Shown piece after piece: positions 14,128 to 61,726 of a stretch of DNA of 64,000 nt. How positions within the stretch are numbered: position 1 is the first letter of the stretch; every line of letters starts with the position of its first letter. The notes under the pieces are model-generated. The model made no database searches. It was not told the DNA's origin and saw only the letters and a program-made list of their open reading frames with translations. Location of the stretch: the NCBI RefSeq assembly GCF_029360805.1, contig NZ_JARKNC010000003.1:248001-312000 (forward strand), in the 5' to 3' direction. The translations under genes were made by a program, and so were the position numbers. The stretch is from Daejeonella sp. JGW-45 (GTDB lineage Bacteria; Bacteroidota; Bacteroidia; Sphingobacteriales; Sphingobacteriaceae).

Positions 14128-14284
14128 GTGGTGACCAGTGATCAGTAAACGGTAATCAGTGACCAGTAAACGGTGATCAGTGACCGGTAAGCGGTGATCG
14201 GTAAACAGTAATCGGTAAACAGTAAACAGTAATCAGTAAACAGTAACCAGTAAGAATACAATCGGCAGCACCGATTACTGATCA
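14110..14284. repeat. Long heptamer tract between convergent genes
   Basis: Twenty strict 7-bp units run from 14110 to 14249, with consensus GT(A/G)A(T/A/C)C(A/G). After a short loop, a reverse-complement arm GCACCGATTACTGATCA follows at 14266-14282. The tract spans the stop codon of the lipoprotein gene (14125-14127) and reaches the stop codon of the kinase gene (14282-14284, TGA of TGATCAG). It may act as a bidirectional terminator-like hairpin. Confidence 0.9.
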
Positions 14285-15889
14285 CATCCTTCTCAAATCA
14301 CGTTTCCGGAGCCACCCTTTAATCACCTGGCCATTTTTCGTGAAGAAAACTACGTAAATGAATCCGTTCCTGTCATCAAGAGCTGTCAGTTCAGGATTAT
14401 TCGAGCGGGCGAGGAAATTGTGCATACGGGAACTTTCATTGGGATCTGTATAAAAGTAAGCCCTGTTTGCCGCCAGCGTATATTTCGGGGCCCTCACCGG
14501 TGGTTCATCAGAGTTACCTGCCATAGGTTCGGATTCAGGGGTCTCTGCAGGCAGCTCTTCTATGACTGATTCATCCTCTGAAGGTAAAACAGTGTCAATT
14601 TGCTCATCACTTTTCTGAACTGAATCGATAAGAGCCCTGATCTCCTTGTCGTGGTTGTCTTTTACACGTCGTTGCGGCTCATTTGATAGATCTGCAGAAT
14701 CTGTTTGCATAGTATCTACCGGGCTAAATGTATTTGTTTCAATAACCGGCTGTTCCCTGGTGTAAAAAGTATACGCCGCCAGGCCGGTAGAAGCCAGAAG
14801 CATCAACACCAGCAAATAGAATAATGGCTTTGACAGGCTCACCCTGTCGGGATCAGGGACCGGCGGCAGAGGGTCAAACACTGTATTTGCCTCATTGACC
14901 GTCGCTATCTTAGACTTGAGCACCTCATTTTCTTTCTCCAGCTTGCTGAGCCTGCCTGCCATAGCCTCTGAACTGCCTATGTCTGCAGTATAATTGTGAA
15001 TAATACTAGCATGCAGTTCAACGCCATCCTTAAACCGGTTGGAGGCTTTCTTTTCCAGACATCTGTCTAAAGTCTCCAAAAGCCAGGTTGGAACCCTCAT
15101 TTCGCTCTCGCGTTTTTCCGCGCTCCATGATTTAGGCAAATGTTGCCGTCTCAGGGCCATCACATCGGGAACTGGCTCCTCCATGTGGGATATCATAACC
15201 TTATTACGAGCGGTCTCGCCTTTGTCATTCAGGGGAAACGGAACCGTTCCGGCCAGTAATTCATAGAGGATCACACCGAAGCTATAAACATCACTCTGAA
15301 AAAGCATCTGACCTTCGTTTTGCTCAGGCGCCATAAACTCGATGGCCCCGGCGTGTCTCAGGCTTGTTCTGCGTTGTTCGTCAGACATGATTGCCAGGCC
15401 GAAATCCAATAGCACATAATTTCCGGTGTAGATATTAAGTTTGACGTTATTGCTTTTAATATCGCCGTGTTTTATCCCCAATTTATGGCAGTGAGCAAGG
15501 GCATTACTTAGCTGAGTAACAACTTTGATCAGTTCGTGTATTGTAAATACAGGGTCAGACGGGCTTTCCAGCAGTTCCTCAAGATCAGGGCCTTCTATAA
15601 ATTCCATTTCGATATATGGGAAAGACCCGCTTTCTGTTAAGCCAGAGTTCAGGATCTTAACGACATTCGGATTAGGAACTTCGTTGACCTTCTTCAGCTT
15701 TTCAACCTCATTAAGGAAATCGCGGTAATTCTTATCGTTTTTGTCCTCCTGATGAATAGGTGTCGGTAAAAGCTTTACGGCACTGATTATCTCACCAATC
15801 CGCCGGCCTTTATACACTGATCCCTGGCCGCCGGTGCGAATGGCGCCCATATTCTCTAAACCTTCAGCTATGGTAAATACTTTTCCCAT
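14282..15889 (-). CDS. Membrane Ser/Thr protein kinase with periplasmic SH3-like tail
   Basis: The 535-residue protein has an N-terminal cytoplasmic kinase domain: glycine loop TGGQGSVYKG (19-28), Lys39 in AVKLL, catalytic loop HGDIKSNN (141-148), DFG (162-164) and APEQ (187-190). The loop has Gly in place of Arg in HRD, so it is a non-RD kinase. A short coiled coil (about 312-332) leads to one transmembrane segment (357-376). Outside lie an acidic Ser/Thr-rich linker and a C-terminal SH3-like domain (about 472-535) ending GWLRKRDLRRM, which could sense wall material. PASTA repeats are absent. The start overlaps the FHA gene stop by one base (TAATG), so the two are coupled. Confidence 0.93.
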   Translation of the reverse strand: MGKVFTIAEGLENMGAIRTGGQGSVYKGRRIGEIISAVKLLPTPIHQEDKNDKNYRDFLNEVEKLKKVNEVPNPNVVKILNSGLTESGSFPYIEMEFIEGPDLEELLESPSDPVFTIHELIKVVTQLSNALAHCHKLGIKHGDIKSNNVKLNIYTGNYVLLDFGLAIMSDEQRRTSLRHAGAIEFMAPEQNEGQMLFQSDVYSFGVILYELLAGTVPFPLNDKGETARNKVMISHMEEPVPDVMALRRQHLPKSWSAEKRESEMRVPTWLLETLDRCLEKKASNRFKDGVELHASIIHNYTADIGSSEAMAGRLSKLEKENEVLKSKIATVNEANTVFDPLPPVPDPDRVSLSKPLFYLLVLMLLASTGLAAYTFYTREQPVIETNTFSPVDTMQTDSADLSNEPQRRVKDNHDKEIRALIDSVQKSDEQIDTVLPSEDESVIEELPAETPESEPMAGNSDEPPVRAPKYTLAANRAYFYTDPNESSRMHNFLARSNNPELTALDDRNGFIYVVFFTKNGQVIKGWLRKRDLRRM

Positions 15890-16680
15890 TATCGAATAGC
15901 TTCCTGAGATACAGATTTGAACTCAATCACCGCAGATTCCCCTAAGATCACCTGATCCCCGTCCTTTAACTCATGGCCGATCTGTGTCGAATTTAATTTA
16001 AAAGGACTGTCGTCATTCATGCTTTTAATCTTGATCTTGTTATGCGGGGGCACGCCACCCTCATCAGCAAATATCATAAAAGAACCTTTTTCTGAGTTCC
16101 AGGATATGTGCGCGTGCTGCCGGCTGATATATTTATTGGCTTCATTGGAACTATCGCCCGGAAAAGCAATTGCATTGACACGGAAAAAACCATCTGAGCC
16201 CTGAGCTTTTTTCTCTCTTCCTATCGTCATGGGTTCCATACCCGAATGAATTTTATATTCAGACTGTTCTGCCTCACCGTTCAATATCTTTATACAGGCC
16301 TCAAGATCTTTCCTGATCAAATTTTCCCGGGTTTTTATAAATAAAGCCAGGGCGAGCTCAGAAGCTCTCCTGCTCCCCGTTGGAGCCTCATCGGCAAACG
16401 ACACTTCCAATGTCCAGTTTAACGGCAGATCCATGTCAAAGTCGTCGGCAATTTTTTGAATTTCTTCCTTTAATCGCTCCGGTTCTCCTACATAAAGTGC
16501 GGCCTCGTAAATATGTTTCTCTTCTAAGCGACTGGATATAAACAGTTGCAAGCCCCTGATATTGCGACCCTCACCTCCCTCCGACTTTTGCAATTCTTCC
16601 TTAATAAAACGTATAGCTGCATCCCGTAAGGATTTCACATCCATCTGAGCTGGCTGATCATTTTTGAATATTTCGAACAT
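15889..16680 (-). CDS. FHA-domain phosphothreonine-binding protein
   Basis: The 263-residue cytoplasmic protein carries a C-terminal FHA domain (about 145-258) with the canonical Gly154-Arg155 and Ser186-Arg187-x-His189 residues that hold phosphothreonine, and ends DGDQVILGESAVIEF. The N-terminal 120 residues form a separate alpha/beta domain (ISSRLEEKHIYEAALYVGEPERL) whose layout recalls the N-terminal domain of actinobacterial FhaA; that link is inferred. It sits between the SEDS-PBP gene and the kinase gene and probably links the kinase to wall synthesis. Confidence 0.92.
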   Translation of the reverse strand: MFEIFKNDQPAQMDVKSLRDAAIRFIKEELQKSEGGEGRNIRGLQLFISSRLEEKHIYEAALYVGEPERLKEEIQKIADDFDMDLPLNWTLEVSFADEAPTGSRRASELALALFIKTRENLIRKDLEACIKILNGEAEQSEYKIHSGMEPMTIGREKKAQGSDGFFRVNAIAFPGDSSNEANKYISRQHAHISWNSEKGSFMIFADEGGVPPHNKIKIKSMNDDSPFKLNSTQIGHELKDGDQVILGESAVIEFKSVSQEAIR

Positions 16681-16730
16681 CTGATTTATTTTAATAATCT
16701 ACTTCAAAAAATAGTCCAATTTTACGCCAA

Positions 16731-19700
16731 TTACATTACTTCCGGTACTTCAACAGAGGCGGTGTCTCTGGCGGCCTCGGGCTTATTCTGTACAGGAACG
16801 CTAATCCCTTTTATATATTTTGATCTTAACAATAAGGGGATTACATGCTGTCCGGCGAGCTTAACAGCATCGCTTGATCCTTTGGTTGACTCAATCCGGA
16901 TACAAACTACCAGATTACCGTTCCCTGAAGCCCTGGGCACAAAGAATGCATACCAGCCGTCATTGATCCTGTTGCCCTTCCAGATTCGCTCCGGCGTACC
17001 ACTTTTACCACCGACAACAGCTCCAAGCCGCGTCGTTTTGTTCGCGCTCTGCCGGATCATATATTGTTTGAGCAAAGCCGCATTTTCCGGACTGGTTAGC
17101 TGAATACCGGGGTTCACCGGAATATCCCTGTCGCCCGATCTCAATACATACCGGTGCTCGGTCAGCTTGCCATGGTTAGAAACAGCGGATACGAGGCGTG
17201 CTACCGCAGCCGGACTTGCAATCAGCTCTCCCTGGCCCCATGCCATGCCGGATATGCCTTTTGCCCGTGTCCTCCTGATATTATTAGGATCATACCTGGG
17301 GCGGGTATCAAATTCCGTTCTTCGCCACAGCTCACGCCATTTATTTTCCTGGGCAGCGTTATCTGCGCCTTTCGAGTAATAGTATCCCCCCACCCCTCTC
17401 AAAAACATTCCTGTTTTCAGATAAAGATCAACCATATTTTCCTGAAGCTGTTCTTCATTTGCAAGCTTGATAAAATATACGTTGTTTGAATTAACTATAG
17501 CGCGTTCCATACCTATCAGACCTGTCTCGTCAGGTTCCAATCCCTTAGTCCGGATCCTCTCAAAAGAACTGACCTGGAACTTTTTATCGGCAGCTGCAGG
17601 GCCGAGTTTATTAAAAGCAGCCATCGCTGTCAGGATTTTAGCCGTTGAGCCGGGTTGTGTTGCATAAGTGAAGCCGAGATCTGATGTTGTCATCCAGTCA
17701 GCCAGTTTATTCTGCTCGGCCGCGGTCATGATCATCCGGTCCCAGTCTTTAACAGGAGGCAAGGGGTAAACCGCCGAAGTAAGCACATCTCCCGTTGAAT
17801 CCTCGATGATCACAACTGAAACACGGTTGTCTTTAAGCGAGTCGTCCTTTGCTATGGACCGCTGGAGATCTGCTTGCAGTCCGGCGTCAAGCGTCAGCAT
17901 TAAATCTCTGTTCCGCAATTTAAATTCTTCAACTTTCCGGCTATTGATACCCGCGAGCAATAAGGGTGCGAGCTCCCTGTAATCTTTCTTAGTGACTGTC
18001 ATTTCCTTCACTCCCCTTGGCAAAAACCTGTCCTCCCTGTACCTGCTGGCAATTGTATTAAATTTAATTACCGGGGTATTGAATCCGCGAAGTTCTGCCG
18101 CGTGTTCGTATTCAGCAAAATATCCATTAGTACTGCCAGTAAAAATGCCGGTATTTGCGTCGCCCGTCCAAAAAAACATCTGCTCTTCATAAGGATAGTA
18201 TCTGTCTACACGCTTATGAATTGCCGAATCCAGATCATAGTCCTTTGCTCCTGCGGCGGCTAAACGACCTTTTTGCTTTTTTATCAAATCCGCATTGCTG
18301 GTGACTAAAATGAGTCCGTTACGATCATATAAAGAACCGGCCTGCAGCTTGTTCATCAGTATATTTATCCTGGGATTATAACTAAACATCCTGGCTCCGC
18401 TCCGGTCTGCCACCAAAGATGGCTGGACAACCCATTTTTCATTATTTACCAGGTACGAGGCGATGTTAAATATAAGTAAGATAACGCCTGTAAAAGCTGC
18501 AGCCAGGGCGGGGATAAGATTCCTATCCTGCTGTTTGCTTATGTAATTCAGTTGTACCTCCGTACCTTTTATCTTTGAAGCCGATAACAGGAATCCTGCA
18601 GCTGCAATATTAGCCAGAAGAGAGGATCCGCCGTAACTCACCAGGGGTAATGAAACGCCTGACAATGGCAGCGCGCCGGTGGAGCCGGCGGCAATTAAAA
18701 GGAATTGAACAAACGTGCTTATACCTATGCCCGCGCTTAAATAGAACAGGAAAGGAGTTCCCGTTTGGCGGCCAATTAATATTGCCCGGTGCAAATAGAT
18801 CAGGAAAAGTATACAGATGCAAACTATACCGGCAAGGCCAAACTCTTCGCCCAGCGCCGGCAGGACCATATCGGTGTGAGCCTCAGGAATATTCTTGGCG
18901 AAGCCCTCACCTATTCCCTGACCACCGATTCCACCTGCTGACATTGCCCATATCCCGTTAGCTACATGGTCGCCGCCGTAGACCTCATTATTCCAGGCAT
19001 CGTTCCAGATAGCCTTCCGCTCAACAAGGCGTTGAACCGGCCCGGGGAAAAGCTTGTCCAGGCCGGGGATTTGATCAATAAGTAAAAACCCTGAGATGAC
19101 CAGAATAGCCATCACTGCCGACTCGCTAAGTTGCTTTCGCTTAAATACCATTGCCAGGGCTAGTATAGTAACGGTTACCAGGGTGGCCAACCATAAACTA
19201 CGTAACAGCCATACTGTGAACACATACAGAATTACAGCGGCAACCATAAACATAAAGTCGCCCCTGGAAAAAGAAAACAGGATGATAAAAGTGAAACAGA
19301 TCACCATTGCAGGTCCCAGATCCCCGAGTACCAGGAAAAGCAGGATCGAAACCAGGATCGCGCCTAAGGCGAAAGAGAAGAACGACCAGCGCTTCCTGTA
19401 AGTGCGGTATTCGGAGATAAATTTTTCGTTGGCAGCAAAGAAACCAGCCAGAAAAAGGATAATGCCGAATTTCACTATTTCACTCGGTTGTATTCCAAAT
19501 AAATTAACCTTCACTCCGCTTCCTTCCGGCCCCGTACCAAAAACGATCATTAACGCCAATAACGCAATAGACAATACGGCCCATGGCCAGCCATTCGCTG
19601 CCTTTCTGTTGGACCTGAAAAAGAACAATCTATAAAACCTGGAATCGGGGTTTAGCTTGCGGAAGTTGATGAATTGCAGGATGCATAAAACCATTAATCC

Positions 19701-20852
19701 GGCGAATAAATAAAACAGGGTATCCTTGGCAAGAAAGCGGTCGCGCAAGGGGTCCTGCAGACTGAGCAGCGTCACAAGCGAGATCCCGGTCAGGAACATC
19801 AATACCGGCAGCAACAACTGATCTGCCTGAGGAAATCTTATGCTTAGTATGACATGGACCATAAGAAACCCTGCAATGAATCCTCCCCCGATGATCCAAA
19901 ACCATTTTGTAAACTCTTCAGGTGTCCTTACAATAAGCGCCTTTTCCTTTTTCAGAATGTTAAAATCCCGCGTAGGAAATAAGCGAATAGTGTGAATATT
20001 TTGCGTAAATGTGAGGTCAATATCCGACGCCAGTTCCTGAACTCCCTGCGACGATCCGAATTGGAAGCCTGGTTTTAGTGGCAAGACCTGGTATGCTTTG
20101 TTATCCGGAAGATTTCGGAATGTAAACTCGCCCTGTGCACCGGTACGTACATAAGCAGTTAATGATTCAAGCTGTTTGCTTCCCTTTTCGTTTGTCAGAA
20201 AGGTTTTAGTGTATCCATTTGCGCTCTCCTGGTATCTCCGGTCTATCTCAGCAACCTGGTCACTATAAACGCTGTCCTGCGGCAGGATCATTATCAGCCT
20301 GACAAGCACCCCCGGAATTAATTCTCCGTCCTTATCTTTAATTTTTCCATTAATGTCGAATTGACCTGACTTAAGGTCTGTCGACGAGGGCAAAGACGGC
20401 GGACGGGATGTTTCCTGATCGTACCGCAGGGAATCATCTCCCGTAAAACCCAATAGCGAACGCGATGCGCGGGCTCTCATTTTAAAGCTTTTACCTCCCC
20501 TGACATCCGCCTCCTGTGCGTTAACAAAAAATCTTCGCTTATTCAATTCTCCAATATTATCTATCACACCAAGGTCGCGGCTAGCATTTTCAACAACAGA
20601 ACGTATCAGATCGATATCCTTTTTATCTTCGAAATAATATCCCCTTAGCATGAGCTTTTGAATCCGTTCTGCTGTTTTGTCTGAATTAAGATTAACCATA
20701 CTCCCATCCGAAATCCGCGTTTTCACATCTTCAAAATCGCGTTCAAGTACCTGATGCAGGCTAAAAAATAAAAGACCGAACGCCACCGATAAGAGGACGA
20801 GAAATATCCGTTCAAACTTTCTGCTAGCTGAATGTGCTTGTGTTTCGGGCAT
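16731..20852 (-). CDS. SEDS (RodA/FtsW) glycosyltransferase fused to a class B penicillin-binding transpeptidase
   Basis: One 1373-residue frame joins the two enzymes that polymerise and cross-link peptidoglycan. After a membrane anchor (15-35) comes a periplasmic region with a carboxypeptidase-regulatory-like beta sandwich (about 163-290). The multi-span SEDS domain (about 315-800) has GIQPSEIVKFGIILFLA, a likely catalytic Asp511 in GDLGPA, TDMVLPALGEEFGLAG (660-675) and GVSLPLVSYGGSSLL (732-746). After a last span near 780-800 comes a PBP2-like domain with Ser1069-Thr-Ala-Lys1072, Ser1122-Asn-Asn1124 and Lys1283-Ser-Gly-Thr. All active-site motifs are intact. SEDS and bPBP are normally separate partner proteins; the fusion fixes them 1:1. 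A long uninterrupted frame argues against an assembly error. Confidence 0.95.
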   Translation of the reverse strand: MPETQAHSASRKFERIFLVLLSVAFGLLFFSLHQVLERDFEDVKTRISDGSMVNLNSDKTAERIQKLMLRGYYFEDKKDIDLIRSVVENASRDLGVIDNIGELNKRRFFVNAQEADVRGGKSFKMRARASRSLLGFTGDDSLRYDQETSRPPSLPSSTDLKSGQFDINGKIKDKDGELIPGVLVRLIMILPQDSVYSDQVAEIDRRYQESANGYTKTFLTNEKGSKQLESLTAYVRTGAQGEFTFRNLPDNKAYQVLPLKPGFQFGSSQGVQELASDIDLTFTQNIHTIRLFPTRDFNILKKEKALIVRTPEEFTKWFWIIGGGFIAGFLMVHVILSIRFPQADQLLLPVLMFLTGISLVTLLSLQDPLRDRFLAKDTLFYLFAGLMVLCILQFINFRKLNPDSRFYRLFFFRSNRKAANGWPWAVLSIALLALMIVFGTGPEGSGVKVNLFGIQPSEIVKFGIILFLAGFFAANEKFISEYRTYRKRWSFFSFALGAILVSILLFLVLGDLGPAMVICFTFIILFSFSRGDFMFMVAAVILYVFTVWLLRSLWLATLVTVTILALAMVFKRKQLSESAVMAILVISGFLLIDQIPGLDKLFPGPVQRLVERKAIWNDAWNNEVYGGDHVANGIWAMSAGGIGGQGIGEGFAKNIPEAHTDMVLPALGEEFGLAGIVCICILFLIYLHRAILIGRQTGTPFLFYLSAGIGISTFVQFLLIAAGSTGALPLSGVSLPLVSYGGSSLLANIAAAGFLLSASKIKGTEVQLNYISKQQDRNLIPALAAAFTGVILLIFNIASYLVNNEKWVVQPSLVADRSGARMFSYNPRINILMNKLQAGSLYDRNGLILVTSNADLIKKQKGRLAAAGAKDYDLDSAIHKRVDRYYPYEEQMFFWTGDANTGIFTGSTNGYFAEYEHAAELRGFNTPVIKFNTIASRYREDRFLPRGVKEMTVTKKDYRELAPLLLAGINSRKVEEFKLRNRDLMLTLDAGLQADLQRSIAKDDSLKDNRVSVVIIEDSTGDVLTSAVYPLPPVKDWDRMIMTAAEQNKLADWMTTSDLGFTYATQPGSTAKILTAMAAFNKLGPAAADKKFQVSSFERIRTKGLEPDETGLIGMERAIVNSNNVYFIKLANEEQLQENMVDLYLKTGMFLRGVGGYYYSKGADNAAQENKWRELWRRTEFDTRPRYDPNNIRRTRAKGISGMAWGQGELIASPAAVARLVSAVSNHGKLTEHRYVLRSGDRDIPVNPGIQLTSPENAALLKQYMIRQSANKTTRLGAVVGGKSGTPERIWKGNRINDGWYAFFVPRASGNGNLVVCIRIESTKGSSDAVKLAGQHVIPLLLRSKYIKGISVPVQNKPEAARDTASVEVPEVM

Positions 20853-20855
20853 ATA

Positions 20856-22289
20856 CTATGGCTGAATGGTTTGTAAGGAATCAGCTTTAAGGAAAATTTC
20901 TTTTAAACTTCCGTTCATAAACCTGTCGGGGGTGTTTCCAAATTGGTAACGTACAGGTACAGGACAGTCCAGAAACTGGATACCTATTAACTTTAAGTTC
21001 TTCGTCTGAGATTCAATCCCCACTTCAAAGCCATCAATTATCATCCCGTTTAGAACTATATTTTTCGCGCTTGCAGGAATCCGGAAAGCCGGTCCGGCAA
21101 AAACAGAATCTGGCTGAAATGCTATTTTACCTCTCGCAAGGATATACAGGGTATCCCTGTTGATATTAATACTGCGGGTTAAAATAATAGGCTGTCTGAA
21201 ACTGGAGTCGTTCAAGACAAGAGTGTCACTCGTTCCGGAATTGAGTGCCTGGTAGAATAGCTGCTCTGAAGAACTCTCAGCGGTATCCGCGATGACGACT
21301 TTCTCCGGAACAGATATTTGTGTTTTGGGATGTAAAAACAGAATATAGATTATCACTAAAGATAAAGCAGCACAAAGTATTATTAACCAAATACTTAATG
21401 GTGTTCCATTTTTCCCTGCTTCCGATTTTGCATCTTCTGAAACGACATCGGGTTCGTCATCCTGATCCCGTTTCGGCACTGCAGGCGTCAGGACTTTTTT
21501 TTTTGAAGCAGGCACCGGATTAACAGCCTGTTGCTGAACTGGTCTGTCGTTCTTCACTAAAACAACTGTAATATTATCTTTCCCCCCCTTTGAATTCGCA
21601 TCATCTATTAGTTCCTGCGCCATCACCTCAATTCCCGAATCGCTTGACAAGATCTGTGTAATGTCTTTCCGGGGTACCAGGTCAGTTAAGCCGTCGCTGC
21701 ATAAAAGGATCATATCACCGGGAAGGAACGGGGAGCTGCCTGTTTCGAAATAGTCGATATCATTTTCCAGGCCGGTGTTAAAACCCAGTGCCTTGTTGAT
21801 CTCATTTCGTTTAGGGTGGCTCATTGCTGCTTCCTCAGTCAGCCTTCCGCTGTCCTCAAGATAGCCTACGAAAGACTGGTCTTTAGTTACTTTTATAAGA
21901 GACCCATCCCGGAGAAGGTATAGCCTTGTGTCTCCCACGTGGATATAATGAAATTCATTATTTTTCACGTCAACAACCGCCAGCGTTAGCACACAAGCCA
22001 TACTCTCATGTTCCCTCACCTCGATCTTCTCCTGGTAGATCTTCTCATTTGCTTTTAGCAGCGCTTCTGCCATCATCGAAATTATGTTGCCGCCTGGTTT
22101 AGCCAGCTGATCGATGATAGTTTCCCGTGCCAGCGCTGCCGCTATTTCACCGCCGGAATATCCGCCTACACCATCTATAGCGGCAGCCAGTATATATTCA
22201 CCGTCGGCTGATAGCTGGACAATAAATGCATCCTCATTGTTCCCGCGAACCCTACCTGTGTCTGTAAGCCCGAAAAAATTATTCGCCAT
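20856..22289 (-). CDS. PP2C-type Ser/Thr phosphatase with periplasmic beta-rich domain
   Basis: The 477-residue protein starts with a PP2C domain (about 1-245) that removes phosphate from Ser/Thr. Metal-binding residues are visible in NNEDAF, Asp39-Gly-Val-Gly-Gly, CSDGLTDL (Asp199) and GKDNITVVLVK (Asp238). A charged linker leads to one transmembrane span (299-320). A periplasmic domain of about 130 residues follows (FRQPIILTRSININRDTLYIL and later turns), resembling short parallel beta-helix rungs. It is the natural opponent of the kinase in the same operon. It stops three bases before the SEDS-PBP start and begins inside the end of a small membrane-peptide gene. Confidence 0.95.
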   Translation of the reverse strand: MANNFFGLTDTGRVRGNNEDAFIVQLSADGEYILAAAIDGVGGYSGGEIAAALARETIIDQLAKPGGNIISMMAEALLKANEKIYQEKIEVREHESMACVLTLAVVDVKNNEFHYIHVGDTRLYLLRDGSLIKVTKDQSFVGYLEDSGRLTEEAAMSHPKRNEINKALGFNTGLENDIDYFETGSSPFLPGDMILLCSDGLTDLVPRKDITQILSSDSGIEVMAQELIDDANSKGGKDNITVVLVKNDRPVQQQAVNPVPASKKKVLTPAVPKRDQDDEPDVVSEDAKSEAGKNGTPLSIWLIILCAALSLVIIYILFLHPKTQISVPEKVVIADTAESSSEQLFYQALNSGTSDTLVLNDSSFRQPIILTRSININRDTLYILARGKIAFQPDSVFAGPAFRIPASAKNIVLNGMIIDGFEVGIESQTKNLKLIGIQFLDCPVPVRYQFGNTPDRFMNGSLKEIFLKADSLQTIQP

Positions 22290-22380
22290 TCTTTTTATAG
22301 GTGTTTTTGATATCCATAAAATGTGCTATCATAAGAATTACACACATAACAAGAAGCACAAAGGATAAAACGTGAGACAT
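22279..22380 (-). CDS. 33-residue single-span membrane peptide
   Basis: An ATG at 22380 lies three bases after the stop codon of the upstream gene. It opens a 33-codon frame that ends in TAA at 22279-22281, overlapping the PP2C start as ATGGCGAATAA. The product is one hydrophobic helix (VLSFVLLVMCVILMIAHFM, about 4-22) with a short polar tail (DIKNTYKKNGE). The exact fit between both neighbours and the overlap with the phosphatase start suggest a real, translationally coupled gene. It is too short to rely on composition, and a role in anchoring or regulating the phosphatase or wall synthase is only inferred. Confidence 0.6.
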   Translation of the reverse strand: MSHVLSFVLLVMCVILMIAHFMDIKNTYKKNGE

Positions 22381-22383
22381 GAT

Positions 22384-23370
22384 CTATGGCTTAAAAATAT
22401 TTATACCAATGATACCGTTAAGTATCATCTTCGAATTTATTGGCAATTCCGTCCAGACGGGCGCGTTGATATCACTTTTCGTTATTACCTGTTCGTTAAC
22501 GACAGTTTTTTCACCGTAGGAACTAACGTAAAACTTAGAATCCGACTTATTGTGCTTTATAGAAAGATGGGGAGTATCAACCCACTCCGATGGGATCTTG
22601 AAAATATTGCTCTTGTCACGGGATTCATCTGATCCTGAAACAACGATCTCTTCATCAGTCATGATATACTCAACCTTCTGCCCTGTATAGGCCTTATCAG
22701 GAAGAATGGTTTCAAACCGCGCGATCGGAATATTTCTGACATCATTTAAACCCGATCCCTCCGGAATGAGCTCGTTTATGTATGGAACTTCATAATAGCC
22801 TTCGCTATAAAATGTAAAACCTTTAAGGTTCTCCTGGTTAATATCAAAGGTTTGAGCCAGGCCGGTTTGCCGGGGGATAAAAGTTACCCGTAAGCTTTCG
22901 TCCTTATGTGTGGTGCCTGGAAGAAGCCTGCCTATGAAGCCCATATCACCCTTCTCATATTCAGGGTGCGAAACAAAGCGGAACACCCATTTATTGCTTG
23001 ATGGCTCGACTACCCGCAGATCAGTTTTCGACTGGGTTAAGATCTCATAAAACTTCTTAACGGCCTCCTGGACGATAAGTCCGAAGATCCCTCTTTTATT
23101 CTCCATAAACCCCTTATAATCGTCGGGGTTGAAGCAAATAATATACTCATGATAGAAAACAACACGCTCGGCAAAAGACAGTGTCGAAATAGATTCCCTG
23201 AATTTTTCTATGATATACCTGTACACCTCATTCGGAGTGAGGGTTTTAGGTTTGGCCGATGTAATACCAGTATCATTTAGAAACCAGCTTTGAATACCAA
23301 TACGTTTCCAAAAATTGGCTTCGGACTTCATGTTTAAGAGCTTTAAGATTATGTAAGGTTTAATGTCCAT
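22384..23370 (-). CDS. Two-domain protein with degenerate FHA-like C-terminus
   Basis: The 328-residue protein has no signal or membrane span. The N-terminal half is alpha/beta with FAERVVFYHEYIICFNPDDYKGF, FGLIVQEAVKKFYEILTQ and FVSHPEYEKGDMGF. Its layout resembles the N-terminal domain of actinobacterial FhaA. The last 100 residues end HLSIKHNKSDSKFYVSS, VVNEQVI and a final short strand, the pattern of an FHA beta sandwich. The Gly-Arg and Ser-x-x-His phosphate-binding residues are missing. Start 23370 is the longest; ATG 23331 (MKSEANFW) is also possible. It is the first gene of the kinase-phosphatase operon. Function unknown. Confidence 0.75.
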   Translation of the reverse strand: MDIKPYIILKLLNMKSEANFWKRIGIQSWFLNDTGITSAKPKTLTPNEVYRYIIEKFRESISTLSFAERVVFYHEYIICFNPDDYKGFMENKRGIFGLIVQEAVKKFYEILTQSKTDLRVVEPSSNKWVFRFVSHPEYEKGDMGFIGRLLPGTTHKDESLRVTFIPRQTGLAQTFDINQENLKGFTFYSEGYYEVPYINELIPEGSGLNDVRNIPIARFETILPDKAYTGQKVEYIMTDEEIVVSGSDESRDKSNIFKIPSEWVDTPHLSIKHNKSDSKFYVSSYGEKTVVNEQVITKSDINAPVWTELPINSKMILNGIIGINIFKP

Positions 23371-38375: not shown

Positions 38376-39926
38376 TTATTTATTCCACCATAAACGGGTA
38401 GCTTCATTATCAGGACCACCAAGTTTTGCAACTCCGGTTGCAACACCACCCGGGTTTGTCTGGCTTTCGCCAATAGTGTACGGTACACGACGAATAACCT
38501 GATCCTTGGTTACAACTGCACTCTCAGAGTTCATTACAGGGTATAACTTAGGGAAACCGGTACGGCGATATTCAGCCCATGCCTCTACTCCATTGGGCCA
38601 CAAAGCAAGCCATTTCTGAGTGTGGATCTGCTCCAATTGTCTTGCAGCGTTTGTAGTCCAGGCAACCGGAAGGTCGGTTAATGCAGGTGAAACTACAGCG
38701 CCTGTTACAGCGATAGGAGTTTTCGTGCTCGCAGTGTATGCAGCTATTGCAGCCGGATCTGAGATACCCCATTGTTTCAGGGAAGTCTCGATACCTTTCT
38801 CATAGAAAGATTTGGCAGTACCAGCGCCCATGTTCCATCCTTTCAATACGCCCTCTGCTCTCAGGAACCAGCTTTCTGCAGCCATCATAACCTCAAATGG
38901 ATTGGTATTCTGATTTGCTGGTAAAAACCTGTCAGCTACGTTTGACAATTTTGTATTTTGATTCTCTGGCAAACCTAACTGTACCTGAGTATATCCGTTA
39001 CGGATACCCTTAAAGGTTGCAGTTGTTCCCTCAATAGGAGCATAAAACTTAGAAAGACGCGGATCTTCGTAACCCGTTAACACGGATTCCATTGCAGCGC
39101 TCATACGGAACTCATTCCATGCCGTTGCCTGATTGAAACTGTTGATGTTATTGGCAGTAGTTTTCAGGTAAGCATCGTGAGCATTGGTTTCCATAACACC
39201 ACCGGCTATCGCAGCCTCAGCATTTGTCTTTGCCAATGCAGGCTCTACTCCTGAGATACGGATAGCGATACGAAGGCGTAAAGAGTTAGCAAACCGTATC
39301 CACTTATCTACATCACCTGCAAAGATCAGATCATTAGTTCCAAGAAGATTTTTTCCCTTGTATGCCTGCAGGTCAGCAGTTGCTTTAGCCAACTGTACCA
39401 GGAAGTCCTTATAAATAACATCCTGAGCATCATAATCCACTTGCTTTAGGCCATTACCTACAGCTGAATAAGGAATTGGTCCCCAATAATCAGTCATTGG
39501 CTGAAAGATCTTAACTTTCCAGATATTGGCCATGGCGTAAATTCCAGGATTTTCAGCTACACCACCCGGTTTAGTGTTTTCCAACACCCCCAACAATGGA
39601 TTTACACCATTATTGTAAAAGTTATTGAATGCACCATTCAACCAGTTACCAACCATTACGTAACGGTCAGAGTTGAAGTTCTGAGCGATATTGCCATAAT
39701 ACTGGGCGTATAAATCGCCAAATAAACTCTGAAAGGTCTGCCATGAAAACAGGATCCCCCTGTGCTGAGTGGCTGCGAATGCATTACCAACAGCTGATGC
39801 GTCAAGCTCTGTTAACCTGGTTTTATCAGTATTGTATTCCTCAAACTTGTCGGTACAAGAAGAAATACCAATAGCTGTAACCAGGACCAAGGTTGAAGCA
39901 ACGATATATAATCTATATTTTTTCAT
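38376..39926 (-). CDS. SusD/RagB-family outer-membrane lipoprotein (first pair)
   Basis: The 516-residue protein has a lipoprotein signal (TAIGISSCTD, Cys near 24). It shows the helical SusD-like layout with IWKVKIFQPMTDYWGPIPYS, WIRFANSLRLRIAIRIS, ESWFLRAEGVLKGW and a C-terminal QLEQIHTQKWLALWPNGVEAWAEYRRTGFP. This is the SusD-like group 2 (PF12771-type) variety. It acts as the lid that captures substrate over the SusC barrel. The stop of the SusC gene lies 20 bases upstream, so the two are co-transcribed. A terminator follows. Confidence 0.95.
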   Translation of the reverse strand: MKKYRLYIVASTLVLVTAIGISSCTDKFEEYNTDKTRLTELDASAVGNAFAATQHRGILFSWQTFQSLFGDLYAQYYGNIAQNFNSDRYVMVGNWLNGAFNNFYNNGVNPLLGVLENTKPGGVAENPGIYAMANIWKVKIFQPMTDYWGPIPYSAVGNGLKQVDYDAQDVIYKDFLVQLAKATADLQAYKGKNLLGTNDLIFAGDVDKWIRFANSLRLRIAIRISGVEPALAKTNAEAAIAGGVMETNAHDAYLKTTANNINSFNQATAWNEFRMSAAMESVLTGYEDPRLSKFYAPIEGTTATFKGIRNGYTQVQLGLPENQNTKLSNVADRFLPANQNTNPFEVMMAAESWFLRAEGVLKGWNMGAGTAKSFYEKGIETSLKQWGISDPAAIAAYTASTKTPIAVTGAVVSPALTDLPVAWTTNAARQLEQIHTQKWLALWPNGVEAWAEYRRTGFPKLYPVMNSESAVVTKDQVIRRVPYTIGESQTNPGGVATGVAKLGGPDNEATRLWWNK

Positions 39927-39946
39927 AATTTATAATTTTTTAATAA

Positions 39947-42900
39947 TTAAAACGATAAGTTTAAGTTTAAACCGATCTGGCGGGTTGTAGGCAGGGAGAA
40001 TCCTTCCTGACCAACGGACGTGTTAGTAGAACCTGCTGTAGATTCAGGGTCGAAACCTTTGGCTTTATTTACGATGAAGAATAAGTTACGACCTACTAAA
40101 GAAACAGAAGCTGCCTGGAATGGAGCTTTGTTAAATAGATTTTTTGGTATTGAATAACTTAAAGAAGCTTCGCGTAAACGAACGTTTGTAGCGTCATAAG
40201 CCCAAACTTCACCTACCGGAGTATTACGTCCACCTACAAATTTCCAGTATGCCTCGGCAGTTGTCGGAACTGTATTAGCTGCTCCGGCTGCGGTTACACC
40301 AGGGAAGATCATAGAGCTTCTTCCAGCTAATGTTTCGGCTACCTGACCATCAGAGTAGATAATTGCATTCGTGAATGAAGTAACCGTACCACCAACACGG
40401 GCTGTAATTAAAGCGCTTAGGCTAAATCTCTTGAAGTTAAATGAATTGCTTATACCTCCGGTCCAGTCAGGACGTGAATTACCGATATCAACAGTAGTAC
40501 CTGGGGTGATCAACGGTAAACCGTTTGGCCCCACTAATATACTTCCGCTGGCATTGCGTTGATAACCTCTGCTATACATCTGACCCAACGGTTGTCCTTC
40601 AACAGCACGCTGGAATACCATGAAATCCTGAGTTAAGTTCAAGGTTTTCAAAGTTGGAGACAACTCAACTAACTTATTAATGTTTCTGGCGAAGTTTACG
40701 TCAATATTCCAACGGAAATCATTTTTAGCAATAGGCGTTCCATTCAGGGTTAATTCAATACCCTTGTTGTTTACTAAACCAGCGTTAACATACTCTGAGC
40801 TCCATCCTGAAGCAGGAGGAAGAGAAACAGTAAATAATTGGTTTTTAGAATCAGAATTATAGAAACCTAAATCAAATCCAAAACGATCGTTAAAGAATTT
40901 AGCTTCTAAACCAATCTCCATTGCCGTTGTTAATTCAGGCTTCAATTCAGGGAATGGTTTTACACCATTTCTGCTAATGAAACCGCCGTTACCGCCAGCC
41001 GCAAAGTTATATAACTGGGTTGTAAGGAATGCAGCAGCATCGTTACCGGTAGTTGCATAAGAACCTCTCAGCTTAGCAAACGAAACTGCACTTGGTAAAG
41101 TGAAGATGTTGGAAAGTATTGCTGAAAAACCTCCTGAACCAAACAGATAAGACTGGTTTTGTTTCGGCAAGGTAGATGACCAGTCATTACGAACTGAACC
41201 AGAGATTGTAATTGCATTTTTGTAAGTGAAATCGGCAGTTGCAAAAACACCTTGTTTTTCTGTGGCAACAAATGAGTAACCATCTGTTGGACCACGACCA
41301 TTGGATGGAATAAATAAGTTATCCCTGTTTAGTCCATTAGTATTGGTTGAACGGAATGTCCTGTCAACGTGCTGAAGACTCGCACCGAAAGTTGCATCAA
41401 CAGTCAGATCTTCCAGAATGTTCTTTTTGTAGATACCAATGAAGTCAAAGTTAGTTTCAGTAACGTCCCTGTTTTCAGTTACGTAGTTACCAAAATCAGC
41501 GATAGTATAGGTATTGTTGTACCATTTACCCTCGAAAGCATCAATTGTTTTATCAATACCTACACGTCCCATTAAACTCAATCCGGGAGTAACCTGGTAA
41601 GTTAATGATCCAAAACCCATAACGCGATCCCTGATGTCATCAGAAATGATACGGTTTTTAGTCCAGAACGGATTTTCACCGCCATTAGATCCAGGATTCC
41701 AATAGTTCTGCATTAATTTACCTGTTGAAGGGTCAATGTAATCGAATTTTTTAGCCTGTTCCAAAGAGATGTTACGTGGAATACGTAAGATGTGACGCTG
41801 GTTATTCTGGTAGGCCTCACCCGTGTATTGCCTGTTGTCAATATCTTGTTTAAGATAAGTAACTTTCGAATCGTAAGATATTTTAGGGCTTACTTTTCCG
41901 GTAATACGCAGGTTAAGATTGTTTCTAACCAACTTGTTATTGTCAATGATACCGGTCGCATCTACCCTGGTGTATGCGAAATAAGTCTGAGCTTTTTCGT
42001 TACCGCCTGTGAATGCTAAAGTATTTGACAATTGCTTTCCTGTAGAATAGAAATCCCTGTAGTTATTCGGCTGAGGAGTCATGTTATAGGTTTTACCAGC
42101 ATCTGCAGGATCATTTCCCCACAAAGCTACTGACTGGCCTGTCATTTTCGGACCCCATGAGCCTTCCTGAGCTCTGTTATAAACTCCAGCGGCACCCTGA
42201 CCATACTCATTCTGGAAGTCATAAAGCTCCATCATCTGCTCAATTTGAGAAGAGCTGTTGAAAGAAACCCCTGAACCTGCCTGCGCACTGCCTTTTTTGG
42301 TAGTGATCAATAACGCACCGTTTGCAGCACGTGAACCGTAAAGTGCAGTTGCAGAAGCTCCTCTCAGTACAGTCATAGACTCGATGTTATCAGGGTTGAT
42401 GCTGGATAATCCATCACCACCATCACGGCCACCGTTACCGGTACCAGGACTGTAATTCGAGTTATCCATTGGAACACCATCGACAACGATCAATGCTCCG
42501 TTGTTACCTGTGATTGAACGGTCTCCTCTCAATACAACGCGGGTTGAACCGCCAAGACCTGAAGAAGTACCGGCAACATCAAGACCGGCAACACGGCCGA
42601 TCAAAGATTTACCAACATTTAACTCTCTGGCTTTTTGGAAATTATCAGTATTGACCTTTTGAGTTGCATAACTCAGGACCCTCTGATCTTTTGTAATACC
42701 CAAAGCTGTAACAATTACTCCTTCAAGTAGCTTTGAATCAGATTCAAGACGAACATTTAAATTTGTCCGTCCGTTAACTGAAACAGTCTGACTTGTAAAT
42801 CCAATGTAGGTAAAGACCAGTGATGCATTGGATGGTACAGAAATTGTAAAATTACCGCTTGCATCAGTACTTGTACCTTGGTTAGATCCACTCACTTTGA

Positions 42901-43027
42901 CGCTTACGCCGGGAAGCGGCAGGTTGTCCGAGTCAGTAACCTTTCCGGTTACACTGACATTCTGCGCAAACGCATAGGTCTGGCAAAGTAGCAGTAACAC
43001 GATTAGTTTGTAAATTTTTTTCATCAT
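39947..43027 (-). CDS. SusC/RagA-family TonB-dependent outer-membrane transporter (first pair)
   Basis: The 1026-residue protein has a Sec signal (MMKKIYKLIVLLLLCQTYAFAQ), a carboxypeptidase-regulatory-like domain (about 23-100), a plug domain (about 110-240, with VLRGASATALYGSRAANGALLITTKKG in two parts) and a 22-strand barrel ending NLNLSF with the terminal Phe. It takes up a nutrient across the outer membrane with energy from TonB. Its first 110 residues are nearly identical to those of the second SusC (45.1-48.1 kb), while the rest diverges. The 449-base leader holds only a terminator of the upstream pair and AT-rich DNA. Confidence 0.96.
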   Translation of the reverse strand: MMKKIYKLIVLLLLCQTYAFAQNVSVTGKVTDSDNLPLPGVSVKVSGSNQGTSTDASGNFTISVPSNASLVFTYIGFTSQTVSVNGRTNLNVRLESDSKLLEGVIVTALGITKDQRVLSYATQKVNTDNFQKARELNVGKSLIGRVAGLDVAGTSSGLGGSTRVVLRGDRSITGNNGALIVVDGVPMDNSNYSPGTGNGGRDGGDGLSSINPDNIESMTVLRGASATALYGSRAANGALLITTKKGSAQAGSGVSFNSSSQIEQMMELYDFQNEYGQGAAGVYNRAQEGSWGPKMTGQSVALWGNDPADAGKTYNMTPQPNNYRDFYSTGKQLSNTLAFTGGNEKAQTYFAYTRVDATGIIDNNKLVRNNLNLRITGKVSPKISYDSKVTYLKQDIDNRQYTGEAYQNNQRHILRIPRNISLEQAKKFDYIDPSTGKLMQNYWNPGSNGGENPFWTKNRIISDDIRDRVMGFGSLTYQVTPGLSLMGRVGIDKTIDAFEGKWYNNTYTIADFGNYVTENRDVTETNFDFIGIYKKNILEDLTVDATFGASLQHVDRTFRSTNTNGLNRDNLFIPSNGRGPTDGYSFVATEKQGVFATADFTYKNAITISGSVRNDWSSTLPKQNQSYLFGSGGFSAILSNIFTLPSAVSFAKLRGSYATTGNDAAAFLTTQLYNFAAGGNGGFISRNGVKPFPELKPELTTAMEIGLEAKFFNDRFGFDLGFYNSDSKNQLFTVSLPPASGWSSEYVNAGLVNNKGIELTLNGTPIAKNDFRWNIDVNFARNINKLVELSPTLKTLNLTQDFMVFQRAVEGQPLGQMYSRGYQRNASGSILVGPNGLPLITPGTTVDIGNSRPDWTGGISNSFNFKRFSLSALITARVGGTVTSFTNAIIYSDGQVAETLAGRSSMIFPGVTAAGAANTVPTTAEAYWKFVGGRNTPVGEVWAYDATNVRLREASLSYSIPKNLFNKAPFQAASVSLVGRNLFFIVNKAKGFDPESTAGSTNTSVGQEGFSLPTTRQIGLNLNLSF

Positions 43028-43423
43028 AAAACTTTTTTTGTGTTTAGGTATAAAAAACTATTTGTTTGCTCTAATTTTTACATAAAACTCATATTATCTT
43101 ACATAAATATTAGGCATTCCTAAATTAAACATTTATTTAATTATGCCAAATATTTACAAAAGTCCCTGAATGTTCAGGCCTTTAACCTCGATCATGTTTG
43201 TATGTAATTGATTATAAATAAATTAATGAAACTTGTAAGAATAAAAATCCGCCACATTTTTTTATGCAGATCGCCGAAAATCGCTAACTGAATTTTTACA
43301 GTAACAATTTAACGACATATTTGCTATTGCGATCTTCAAAAACTGCGAGTTTTTATCGGCTGCGGCGCGCCGCCCGGATGCCGGATAATTGCTAATTATT
43401 TATATAAAAAAAACTGCGAAAAC

Positions 43424-43455
43424 AAAAAAGCACCCCCTTTCAGGAGTGCTTTTTA
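43424..43455 (-). terminator. Terminator of the second SusCD operon
   Basis: The arms AAAAAGCACCCC (43425-43436) and GGAGTGCTTTTT (43443-43454) pair with one G-T/C mismatch. A-rich DNA on the plus side gives a T-run on the minus strand. It lies 22 bases past the susD stop. The rest of 43028-43423 is AT-rich leader with a GCGGCGCGCCGC palindrome at about 43363-43374. Confidence 0.8.
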
Positions 43456-43476
43456 CAATACAAAATTTACCGGGAA

Positions 43477-45066
43477 TTACTTCATCCAGTAAAATTTAAT
43501 ATCCGGTTCATCTTTTCCTTGAAGATACGCTGTAACAGCTGCATCATAAGCAGCTTTACTTGAACTTGCTACAAGGTTAGGATAAGTCAAACGCTTAATA
43601 AACGTTCCTTTTGGAAGTCTTGGGTTCGTAGGGAACGCAATTGCGTACTGTGCAGGGTATCCAGTTCTTCTGAACTCTGACCATGCTTCAGTTCCTTCAG
43701 GAAATAAAGCGATCCATTTTTGAGTGATGATCTTTTCGAGCTTATTGTCGAAACTACCCGCTTCATCCCATTTTACCGTATTGCTTGTTAATGGCTCGCT
43801 GTTTAATGAAGCGTTAGCAGGATCAACATACGCCGCCTGGGTTGAAGTGCTGTTCAGGTAAGCATCCACACCACCGGCACCATTTAATGTGAACGAAGCT
43901 CTTATCCCTTCTTCGTACAAAGATTGAGCAGTTCCGCCCACATTCCAACCTCTTAATGCACCCTCAGCTTTAAGGAAATAGCTTTCAGCGCCATCAACGA
44001 TCTTTACAGGTGCAAACTCAGCAACCTTGAATGTAGAATAATTGATGTATGGTTTTTTATCAGCTGGTTTTTCAATTCCCGGTCTGATTCCTCTGAAGGT
44101 ACCGGCTATTGGTGCATGCGTTGCAGGATTAGCATATACTGCTAAACGGCTGTCTTTGAAACCATCAAGGTACGTAATGATAGCTGCAGACATCCGGGTA
44201 TCAGACCATGCATTTGTCATGGTGAAATAAGGATTCACTGCAGTTGCGGAAGCTGCAACCTGGAAAGAGCCAGTGGATAGGTCCATTACACCACCATTAG
44301 CAGGCAATAAAGCTTTGTCAGCCTCAGCCTTTCCTTTAGCAGGATCAACCACCGAAATACGCATTGCCATACGTAATCTGATGGTGTTTGCAAGCTTTAC
44401 CCATTTCAGATAGTCACCCTTAAAAGTCGATCTGTCCCATTTCGCGAAACGCTTGGTATCAGCTGCCGGATCAGCTTTCTCTGCTGCCAAAAGTGCTGCA
44501 ACAGCTTTTTCCAGGTCAGCAAAAATACCTGCATAAACTTCTGCAGGAGAGTCAAACTTAGGCTCTGCGGTGTTACCGAACTTAGAGTACGGGTAAGGGC
44601 CGAAAGTATCAGTAAGCCTTTGACCAGCCATCCCTTTAAGGATCAGACCGATGGCATACAGATCCGGATATTTTACATCATATCCTTTTTTCTGCATAGT
44701 CAACCAGTTGTTCATTACATTGTTTGTGCTGGCATCGTATGAACCTGCCCAGATACCTTTGGTTGAGTAGGTCATGGTATTTACATTACCGATGAAAGCT
44801 GTCGGAGCTTCAAGGTAACCTGCATATGACTCGGCCTGAAGATTCTGCTGGGTCTGAACACCCGTTCCTGTAACCACGATATTGTTCATCATGATTGGTA
44901 ACAAAAACGCAGCCTCGGCACCGTCCTTGGCAAGGTCGGCATCAGAGATACGGCCTTTATCCACATTTAACCCCTCAAAGTCGTCCGTACATGCAGGAGC
45001 AGCAAGGGTTAACAAGCCCAGGCAAAGGAGCTTGAAATTGTTTTTATTAATATATTTCATCTTCAT
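43477..45066 (-). CDS. SusD/RagB-family outer-membrane lipoprotein (second pair)
   Basis: The 529-residue protein has a lipoprotein signal (LTLAAPACTDD, Cys near 26). Conserved SusD-like segments are AIGLILKGMAGQRLTDTFGPYPYS, YLKWVKLANTIRLRMAMRIS, ESYFLKAEGALRGWNVGG and KLEKIITQKWIALFPEGTEAWSEFRRTGYP. It is the same SusD-like group as the first pair and is only moderately similar outside these blocks. It lies 21 bases after its SusC partner. The ligand is unknown. Confidence 0.95.
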   Translation of the reverse strand: MKMKYINKNNFKLLCLGLLTLAAPACTDDFEGLNVDKGRISDADLAKDGAEAAFLLPIMMNNIVVTGTGVQTQQNLQAESYAGYLEAPTAFIGNVNTMTYSTKGIWAGSYDASTNNVMNNWLTMQKKGYDVKYPDLYAIGLILKGMAGQRLTDTFGPYPYSKFGNTAEPKFDSPAEVYAGIFADLEKAVAALLAAEKADPAADTKRFAKWDRSTFKGDYLKWVKLANTIRLRMAMRISVVDPAKGKAEADKALLPANGGVMDLSTGSFQVAASATAVNPYFTMTNAWSDTRMSAAIITYLDGFKDSRLAVYANPATHAPIAGTFRGIRPGIEKPADKKPYINYSTFKVAEFAPVKIVDGAESYFLKAEGALRGWNVGGTAQSLYEEGIRASFTLNGAGGVDAYLNSTSTQAAYVDPANASLNSEPLTSNTVKWDEAGSFDNKLEKIITQKWIALFPEGTEAWSEFRRTGYPAQYAIAFPTNPRLPKGTFIKRLTYPNLVASSSKAAYDAAVTAYLQGKDEPDIKFYWMK

Positions 45067-45087
45067 ATTATATATGTTATATGGGTA

Positions 45088-48000: not shown

Positions 48001-48105
48001 ATTGTCAGAGTCAGTCACCTTTCCGGTAACACTGATATTCTGCGCAAACACATAGGTCTGGCAAAGCAGCAGTAATACGACTAGTTTGTAAATTTTTTTC
48101 GTCAT
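45088..48105 (-). CDS. SusC/RagA-family TonB-dependent outer-membrane transporter (second pair)
   Basis: The 1005-residue protein has a Sec signal (MTKKIYKLVVLLLLCQTYVFAQ), a carboxypeptidase-regulatory-like domain, a plug domain with LQGASAAALYGAQAANGVILITT in the usual place, and a barrel that ends LRAGF. The N-terminal domain is almost a copy of that in the first SusC. The barrel differs, so the two pairs probably import different or differently modified substrates. The 246-base leader carries the terminator of the next operon and an AT-rich start region. Confidence 0.96.
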   Translation of the reverse strand: MTKKIYKLVVLLLLCQTYVFAQNISVTGKVTDSDNLPLPAVSVKVSGTTQGTSTDIEGNFTISVPSTATLVFTYIGYTSQSVPVQGRTTLNIRLAEDATALGEVVVTALGIERSAKSLSYSTTNVSAEELNKVTGANVLNSLAGKAAGVFVTQGSGGPGSSPRIVLRGNKSIAGSNSPLYVVDGVPIGGFSDYNPEDIESLQILQGASAAALYGAQAANGVILITTKKGKLGTTSVNVASTATFDSPFVLPELQTTYGQGSNGIASTTGNQSWGPKISNGSDAHIRDFFRTGENYVNSVSLASGNETQRIYISYANTTAKAMVPGYGYGRNNITVRGSSKAFNNKLTVDGGINYINRHTKNQNFSGWYNSPMFGLYLFPMGDDMNKYKANGGGKWDASRGFYVQNWPYIVNEHSSNQNPYWITNKITRDNLNQRTNLTGSAKYDLTNWLNVAGRTTYNNYGSDEEQRFGATSDPTSVGANGAFNKRVNRGSELYTDVLLNANKALSSNLTLIANAGFSNTITKFDEIFNGNDGAGNTLFYADYFALQGLTGNFISTSEKTKRIDRAVFGTAAFGFKETFFLDVTARNEWSSTVNDPFFYPSAGLAYVLTNTIGTNNFLSYAKLRAGYAEVGNSLSFGQAATNSNYQVNTSESVVGRPTLPFFSGTDTISLKPERSKSIEFGADLRFLKDKLNLSVTYYNALTEDQVFTIAAPTGSGATSFYINGGTIRNKGIEASLSYDTKFGAVRWTPSLNFTRNTNRIEELSSLLTTDRFVLNSGNRLTNLFLLRPGSSLLQGRKYGSYHDLFGKTYQYDANGKQLFDPVTGLPVLSATDDQFIGNANPDFLLNMNNNFQYKNFNLSFLVDGRFGGLVSSSTEQWLDFKGLSKRSGEARDAGGVMLNGRLVDAQTYFGHISSKADYGAAGLEYTYSSTNIRLRELALGYTLPKFGNTFKNVNLSLVGRNVLFFYKKAPFDPELASGTGNGAQGFESFQIPSATSIGLTLRAGF

Positions 48106-61710: not shown

Positions 61711-61726
61711 GTTCTTAAATTTAATA

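Follow-up and report, generated by a model that had tools for sequence, protein, structure and literature searches.

Introduction

In mycobacteria, the genes fhaA, fhaB, pstP, rodA, pbpA, pknA and pknB follow one another in this order, and the way in which kinases control synthases composed of a SEDS polymerase and a class B penicillin-binding protein (PBP) has yet to be worked out for actinobacteria and Firmicutes. Described here is a Bacteroidota operon of comparable content, in which the SEDS and PBP parts are joined in a single protein of 1373 amino acids (aa). The operon occupies positions 14282-23370, on the minus strand, of a 64,000-nucleotide stretch of DNA from Daejeonella sp. JGW-45 (contig NZ_JARKNC010000003.1, positions 248,001 to 312,000; hereafter the window).

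The actinobacterial pstP gene cluster has been described (PMC6554272, available in excerpt), and E. coli RodA-PBP2 chains fused by engineering were reported to be active in the accessible parts of two articles (PMC6207328, PMC10449877). A natural protein with SEDS and PBP in one frame is mentioned in one sentence of the portion available from the latter, with reference to the Rhodococcus RHA1 genome; no Bacteroidota case, operon or distribution is given in that portion. No account of the Bacteroidota module was found by title in the open-licence literature, among the matches listed.

Results

Operon and fusion protein

All six genes of the operon postulated in the original prediction were present at the positions given above, on the minus strand, with neighbours that touch or overlap. 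In the order of transcription, they encode an FHA-like protein, a 33-aa membrane peptide, a PP2C phosphatase, the 1373-aa SEDS-class B PBP fusion, a second FHA protein (FHA2) and a Ser/Thr kinase, with an 11-base overlap of the peptide gene and the PP2C start, 3 bases between PP2C and fusion, and one base common to FHA2 and kinase.

The fusion gene (16731..20852, minus strand) had been predicted to be a single gene with intact catalytic motifs, and this was borne out by Pfam matches lying in one frame, to FTSW_RODA_SPOVE with 155.1 bits (cut-off, 26.4) and to Transpeptidase with 68.5 bits (cut-off, 22.1), and by alignment. The transpeptidase motifs are Ser1069/Lys1072 (SxxK), Ser1122/Asn1124 (SxN) and Lys1283-Ser-Gly (K[ST]G); these and the SEDS motif His-Thr-Asp661 were invariant in all 87 full-length copies aligned (85 distinct; frame limit, 1250 aa, by which loci L119 and L123 were excluded). 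The conserved SEDS aspartate, encoded here at 18870-18872, corresponds to the catalytic Asp262 of E. coli RodA according to the accessible text of PMC6207328 and PMC10449877. Passing of the Pfam cut-off together with this residue assigns the first part to the SEDS polymerases, and the three motifs downstream of one transmembrane helix, with no GT51 match in the fusion at E 0.1 (Pfam), assign the second to the class B PBPs. The two domains were checked by Pfam in five fusions and by alignment in the 87 copies, and the other matches of the N-terminal domain reported below rest on a frame length of at least 1109 aa.

The frame exceeded 1250 aa in 78 of the 80 named loci, which are the best 80 of 401 relatives (plain SEDS proteins included); the exceptions were L119, where the frame is broken into pieces of 266 and 1159 aa, and L123, a contig of 5185 bases without a full frame. 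An assembly or frameshift artefact was thereby ruled out, and no stop or frameshift was found between the SEDS and PBP halves, a check that the original prediction had proposed. By comparison with two genomes of the same genus, the proportions of synonymous (pS) and nonsynonymous (pN) differences across all six genes were 0.73-0.92 and 0.105-0.364, respectively, each gene having a pN well under its pS; the dN/dS ratio was not computable because of saturation of synonymous sites, except for the peptide (pep) against L159 (0.092). The locus was thus confirmed to be real, neither chance nor artefact.

The N-terminal module of the fusion (residues 1-345; 19818..20852, minus strand) consists, by hydropathy and a structure model (pLDDT, 88.4), of a transmembrane helix (residues 12-38), a helical periplasmic part (43-149), a beta sandwich (157-283) and another transmembrane helix (311-339). 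In a fold search, the sandwich resembled those of dioxygenases, pilins and carboxypeptidase D-type proteins with low TM-scores of about 0.2 by query length. A CarboxypepD_reg match at residues 230-272 remained below threshold in the window fusion (23.9 bits; cut-off, 32.3) and was above it in L149 and L151 (42.9 and 44.8 bits). According to hydropathy and two models, the module is followed by the SEDS domain (residues 340-770; 18543..19835, minus strand), a short linker, and the class B PBP part (residues 779-1335; 16848..18518, minus strand), made up of a transmembrane helix (779-797), a pedestal and the transpeptidase. The PBP part matched PBPs by structure with a Z score of about 31, including FtsI of FtsWIQBL complexes.

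Separate SEDS genes

The fusion had been supposed to be additional to the normal pairs of SEDS protein and PBP, and both pairs were located in the genome from which the window derives: FtsW lies in the dcw cluster in the order PBP, MurE, MraY, MurD, FtsW, MurG, and elsewhere RodA overlaps PBP2, both of these above the NCBIfam cut-offs. Each of the 15 other carriers searched had, beside the fusion, a pair of separate SEDS frames (380-466 aa); in 14 of the 15, one frame belonged to the RodA clade and the other to that of FtsW, and the second frame of the remaining carrier (G509) was absent from the tree. Replacement of the other SEDS genes by the fusion was ruled out by these separate RodA and FtsW genes. 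All 20 fusions in the SEDS tree, a quick one, formed one clade (support, 100), which has a long stem branch of 2.25 changes per column and lies apart from the clades of Bacteroidota RodA and of Bacteroidota FtsW.

The fusion scored 128.6 bits against the RodA equivalog TIGR02210 (cut-off, 336.7; genome's own RodA, 357.9) and 153.4 bits against the FtsW equivalog TIGR02614 (cut-off, 337.5). Since the genome's own dcw-cluster FtsW also fell below the latter cut-off (269.4), the equivalog test speaks only against RodA; by score, the fusion SEDS domain is nearer to FtsW than to RodA.

Conservation of gene linkage

Linkage was counted in distinct loci with enough flanking sequence, after removal of the duplicates L043 and L109 and the plasmid locus L134. 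PP2C and the FhaA-like gene were each linked to the fusion in 77 of 78 such loci, a kinase in 73 of 73, and FHA2 adjoined the fusion in 81 of 81. The single FhaA-like miss fits L048, where two kinases lie in between, and the position of the kinase varies among relatives, being upstream, downstream, both, or inside the cluster. A counterpart of the microprotein, with its motif required, was found in 81 of 82 loci having both neighbours (exception, L084), and inspection by eye of nine further loci (L048, L134, L149, L150 and L153-L157, of which L157 is of the main-clade type) revealed a 22-32-aa hydrophobic frame after the FHA gene in every one; in L149 and L150, this short frame is flanked by the FHA gene on one side and the fusion on the other.

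In the deep-branching genome G626, PP2C, SEDS and transpeptidase are contained in one 1384-aa frame (L152:8262-12413), and in G506 a separate PP2C, 54% identical to the PP2C part of G626, is the neighbour of the fusion. This pair is a predicted Rosetta-stone link between phosphatase and synthase. The FHA protein encoded downstream of the 1384-aa frame in G626 bears a Swt1-like HEPN domain.

Partner genes

The first gene (22384..23331, minus strand) encodes an FhaA-like protein with a C-terminal FHA domain, identified by a family profile and by relatives. Its open frame starts at 23370, and the ATG at 23331, used as the start in 10 of 12 aligned relatives, is probably the true start. No Pfam match to FHA was obtained for the window protein itself; its FHA nature is deduced from its relatives, since 7 of the 13 aligned family members (the window member not among the seven) match FHA at E up to 1, with a best value of 2.4e-12. 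The family profile also found solved FHA domains (best E, 4.4e-5), and the counterpart on a Spirosoma plasmid is annotated as FHA domain-containing. Kinship with the FHA domain of M. tuberculosis FhaA was rejected (E 1.8 only). The actinobacterial FhaA_N domain was matched by 2 of the 13 family members, both beside deep-branching fusions (best E, 4.9e-6), the FHA protein of L149 scoring 23.7 bits (E 7e-5; cut-off, 25); Pfam gave no FhaA_N match in the window FhaA-like protein, and none of the 21 members of the FHA2 family matched it.

The membrane microprotein of 33 aa (22279..22380, minus strand) was recognized by its reading frame and a single transmembrane helix in the hydropathy profile. 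The phosphatase (20856..22289, minus strand) comprises a PP2C domain at residues 7-246, a transmembrane helix at 300-318 and an extracytoplasmic C-terminal part without a Pfam match; its nearest solved chain was M. tuberculosis PstP (1txo/2cm1; E 1.7e-32). FHA2 (15889..16680, minus strand) carries its FHA domain at residues 152-247, and all 21 aligned members of its family matched FHA at E up to 1. The kinase (14282..15889, minus strand) has its catalytic domain at residues 16-286, one transmembrane region at about 350-374 and an extracytoplasmic C-terminal part. PP2C, kinase and FHA2 were all above the Pfam cut-offs, and hydropathy showed the catalytic part to be followed by a transmembrane helix in all 139 kinases and all 87 PP2Cs analysed. 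No PASTA match was detected in the window kinase (E 0.1), in its C-terminal part (E 10) or in the kinases of four relatives, and an SH3b-like reading of the last 70 residues of the kinase, made by eye, received no Pfam support. The operon kinase of G708 (L153:13654-15039) bears an FHA domain of its own.

Distribution

Fusions above 900 bits were found in 8 of 296 genomes of the class, the window genome included, in a search that scored two candidates per genome, so that weak distant fusions could have escaped. Probing with the N-terminal module, the matches listed all lying in frames of 1109 aa or longer, gave 40 of 201 genomes of the family, 37 of 150 and 13 of 146 in two further families, and 12 of 345 across the phylum, and in another class of the phylum the fusion was found in 5 of 146 genomes. 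The count of 12 of 345 rules out the fusion as the ordinary form in the phylum, an outcome that the original prediction had named, together with a lack of separate RodA/PBP2, as fatal to it. The fusion is carried, among the best 80 of 401 relatives, by members of genera such as Mucilaginibacter, Pedobacter, Daejeonella, Hufsiella, Paradesertivirga, Segetibacter, Flavisolibacter and Ferruginibacter.

A complete operon is carried by a 137-kb plasmid of Spirosoma oryzicola (L134, 9432-19988), where a hypothetical gene and then genes for a response regulator and a sensor histidine kinase come after it. The product name of the plasmid fusion is nearly identical to that of S. linguale Slin_1280, 'FtsW/RodA/SpoVE family protein', which is tabulated among the PBPs with no drug assigned and no comment in the accessible part of PMC8225782; judged by product name, Slin_1280 is probably a member of the fusion family. 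Two divergent copies of the fusion occur in G926, and one copy in G916 groups with the Sphingobacteriaceae and Chitinophagaceae types, beside another of its own family's type. Both the divergent copies and the misplaced one are regarded as probable signs of transfer. On one contig of Pedobacter panaciterrae O48, the operon is present twice (L109, L115), with no difference between the two fusion proteins; the first FHA gene of L115 is interrupted and forms two frames.

Elsewhere in the window, at 38376-48105 and 60058-63928, consecutive large frames resembling outer-membrane receptors and lipoproteins, similar to SusC/SusD pairs, were noted by eye.

Discussion

From these data, it is inferred that the operon probably encodes an auxiliary, phospho-switched peptidoglycan synthase, which would be the cell's third synthase of the SEDS type; its enzyme activity, phosphorylation and trigger are predictions. 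Lipid II would be polymerized by the SEDS domain (Asp661), from whose last transmembrane helix a short conserved cytoplasmic linker would lead to the PBP's own transmembrane helix, so that the emerging strand could be cross-linked by the transpeptidase (Ser1069) of the same chain. The N-terminal periplasmic module, held between two transmembrane helices, probably interacts with the wall or with partners in the envelope. Through its outer C-terminal part, the membrane kinase is probably a sensor of the envelope, and it probably phosphorylates either the synthase or its adaptors; the resulting phosphothreonines would be read by both FHA proteins, which would recruit or hold the synthase, and the membrane PP2C would reset the switch. 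The transmembrane microprotein probably binds the phosphatase or the synthase in the membrane.

Several points weigh against this reading. The SEDS tree came from a quick search in which long branches were flagged, and it placed E. coli FtsW outside the Bacteroidota FtsW group. The model of the SEDS-PBP part (1058 residues) is of middling quality (pLDDT, 75.1; pTM, 0.64), and its fold matches are confined to the PBP part, with class A PBPs among them. The outer part of the kinase gave no Pfam match at E 10 apart from one at chance level. Linkage is looser outside the main clade: the deep-branching loci L149 and L150 have FHA genes and no PP2C or kinase profile match in a 19-kb stretch, and in L155 FHA2 and the kinases lie on the other strand. 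The single-chain PP2C-SEDS-PBP protein was found in one genome only (1 of 146 class genomes, the family holding one genome). Finally, the product may be other than ordinary peptidoglycan.

Two other functions were considered. In enterococci, a kinase-controlled pathway involves PBP4(5), and on this model the fusion might be a low-affinity, beta-lactam-tolerant backup synthase that is activated by the kinase under drug or wall damage. The transpeptidase sequence of the fusion finds PBP2a first (E 2.5e-9), followed by T. thermophilus PBP2 (0.0079), MrdA (0.017) and PBP4 (0.026); its profile also finds PBP2a first (E 4.4e-17), as Foldseek does for the predicted structure, whereas for the PBP2 of the same genome the first match is MrdA (E 3.3e-75), PBP2a coming far behind (1.2e-29). 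The listing of Slin_1280 among the S. linguale PBPs with no drug assigned (PMC8225782, accessible part) would agree with such a role. However, VIA-align puts PBP3/FtsI first, with near ties, and the similarity to PBP2a spans part of the domain, so that a backup function of this kind is considered unlikely. The patchy carriage within the genus and families, the plasmid carriage, the long SEDS stem branch and the added periplasmic module might point to a specialised layer of the wall or to a lipid-linked polymer of non-standard type, made for a life stage or surface structure and not for stress repair; as the polymerase Asp and transpeptidase motifs are invariant in 87 of 87 copies, as expected for peptidoglycan, this would be more unlikely still.

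As to origin, direct descent or transfer from the actinobacterial pstP operon, followed by fusion of rodA and pbpA, has to be weighed against independent assembly. The FhaA_N matches beside deep-branching fusions (2 of 13 members; L149), the nearest solved PP2C being M. tuberculosis PstP, the presence of M. tuberculosis PbpA among the better matches of the transpeptidase profile (E 4.1e-11) and the same order of FHA, phosphatase, SEDS and PBP would all suit an actinobacterial source. Other PP2Cs, however, nearly equal PstP (E 7.3e-32), a match to PbpA is obtained with the ordinary PBP2 of the genome as well (E 3.2e-25), a PASTA match and FhaB are lacking, none of the 21 FHA2 family members matched FhaA_N, and the fusion SEDS domain scores nearer to FtsW than to RodA; the SEDS tree contained no actinobacterial sequences. 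An actinobacterial origin is considered plausible, if somewhat doubtful. Adjacent partner genes often become fused in the course of evolution, and RodA and PBP2 adjoin in the window genome, as would be expected if the fusion were an ordinary lineage-specific RodA/PBP2 duplicate joined by accident, with the signalling genes as chance neighbours; but the SEDS clade stands apart from Bacteroidota RodA and FtsW and includes another class of the phylum, and 73 to 81 loci retain the gene linkage, which makes such an accident highly improbable.

Extending the reading as an auxiliary phospho-switched synthase, it is tentatively proposed that the operon might be a transferable, self-contained module, in which a single-chain SEDS-PBP synthase is equipped with its own kinase, phosphatase, two phosphothreonine readers, periplasmic sensor module and dedicated transmembrane microprotein, and which plasmids could take up and families could exchange, adding a third synthase for emergencies of the envelope, the phosphatase being built into the chain in one lineage; this is possible, with somewhat less than even confidence. 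Covalent joining of polymerase and cross-linker, and of the phosphatase in one lineage, fixes their stoichiometry and makes coupling and phospho-control testable, in an enzyme that is probably non-essential because other SEDS genes are present. Natural SEDS-PBP fusions are thereby made available to structural biologists, and the case suggests that wall synthases can spread as accessory units.

Compared with the E. coli synthases RodA-PBP2 and FtsW-FtsI, the fusion combines the same two enzyme families with intact motifs and differs in its separate SEDS clade, its N-terminal periplasmic module and its kinase operon context. In the engineered chain, as far as the available text describes it, RodA precedes PBP2 as in the natural fusion (PMC6207328, PMC10449877), whereas the linker here is natural and conserved rather than added. 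The protein mentioned for Rhodococcus RHA1 is likewise a single SEDS and PBP frame, according to the same available text.

The original prediction had called the locus a mirror of the mycobacterial operon, and this stands in part; among known operons, the actinobacterial pstP cluster is the closest. The content agrees, an FHA protein, a PP2C with a transmembrane helix and outer domain (the PstP type), SEDS, class B PBP and a membrane kinase being gathered in one cluster, as does the order of FHA, then phosphatase, then SEDS/PBP. The likeness fails at the fhaB slot, which is occupied by the 33-aa microprotein with no FhaB there, at the additional FHA gene after the fusion, and at the kinase, which lacks a PASTA match and varies in number and place. 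Moreover, SEDS and PBP form one chain with an extra periplasmic module in Bacteroidota, whereas actinobacterial rodA and pbpA are separate genes, and carriage is patchy and accessory, beside separate SEDS genes.

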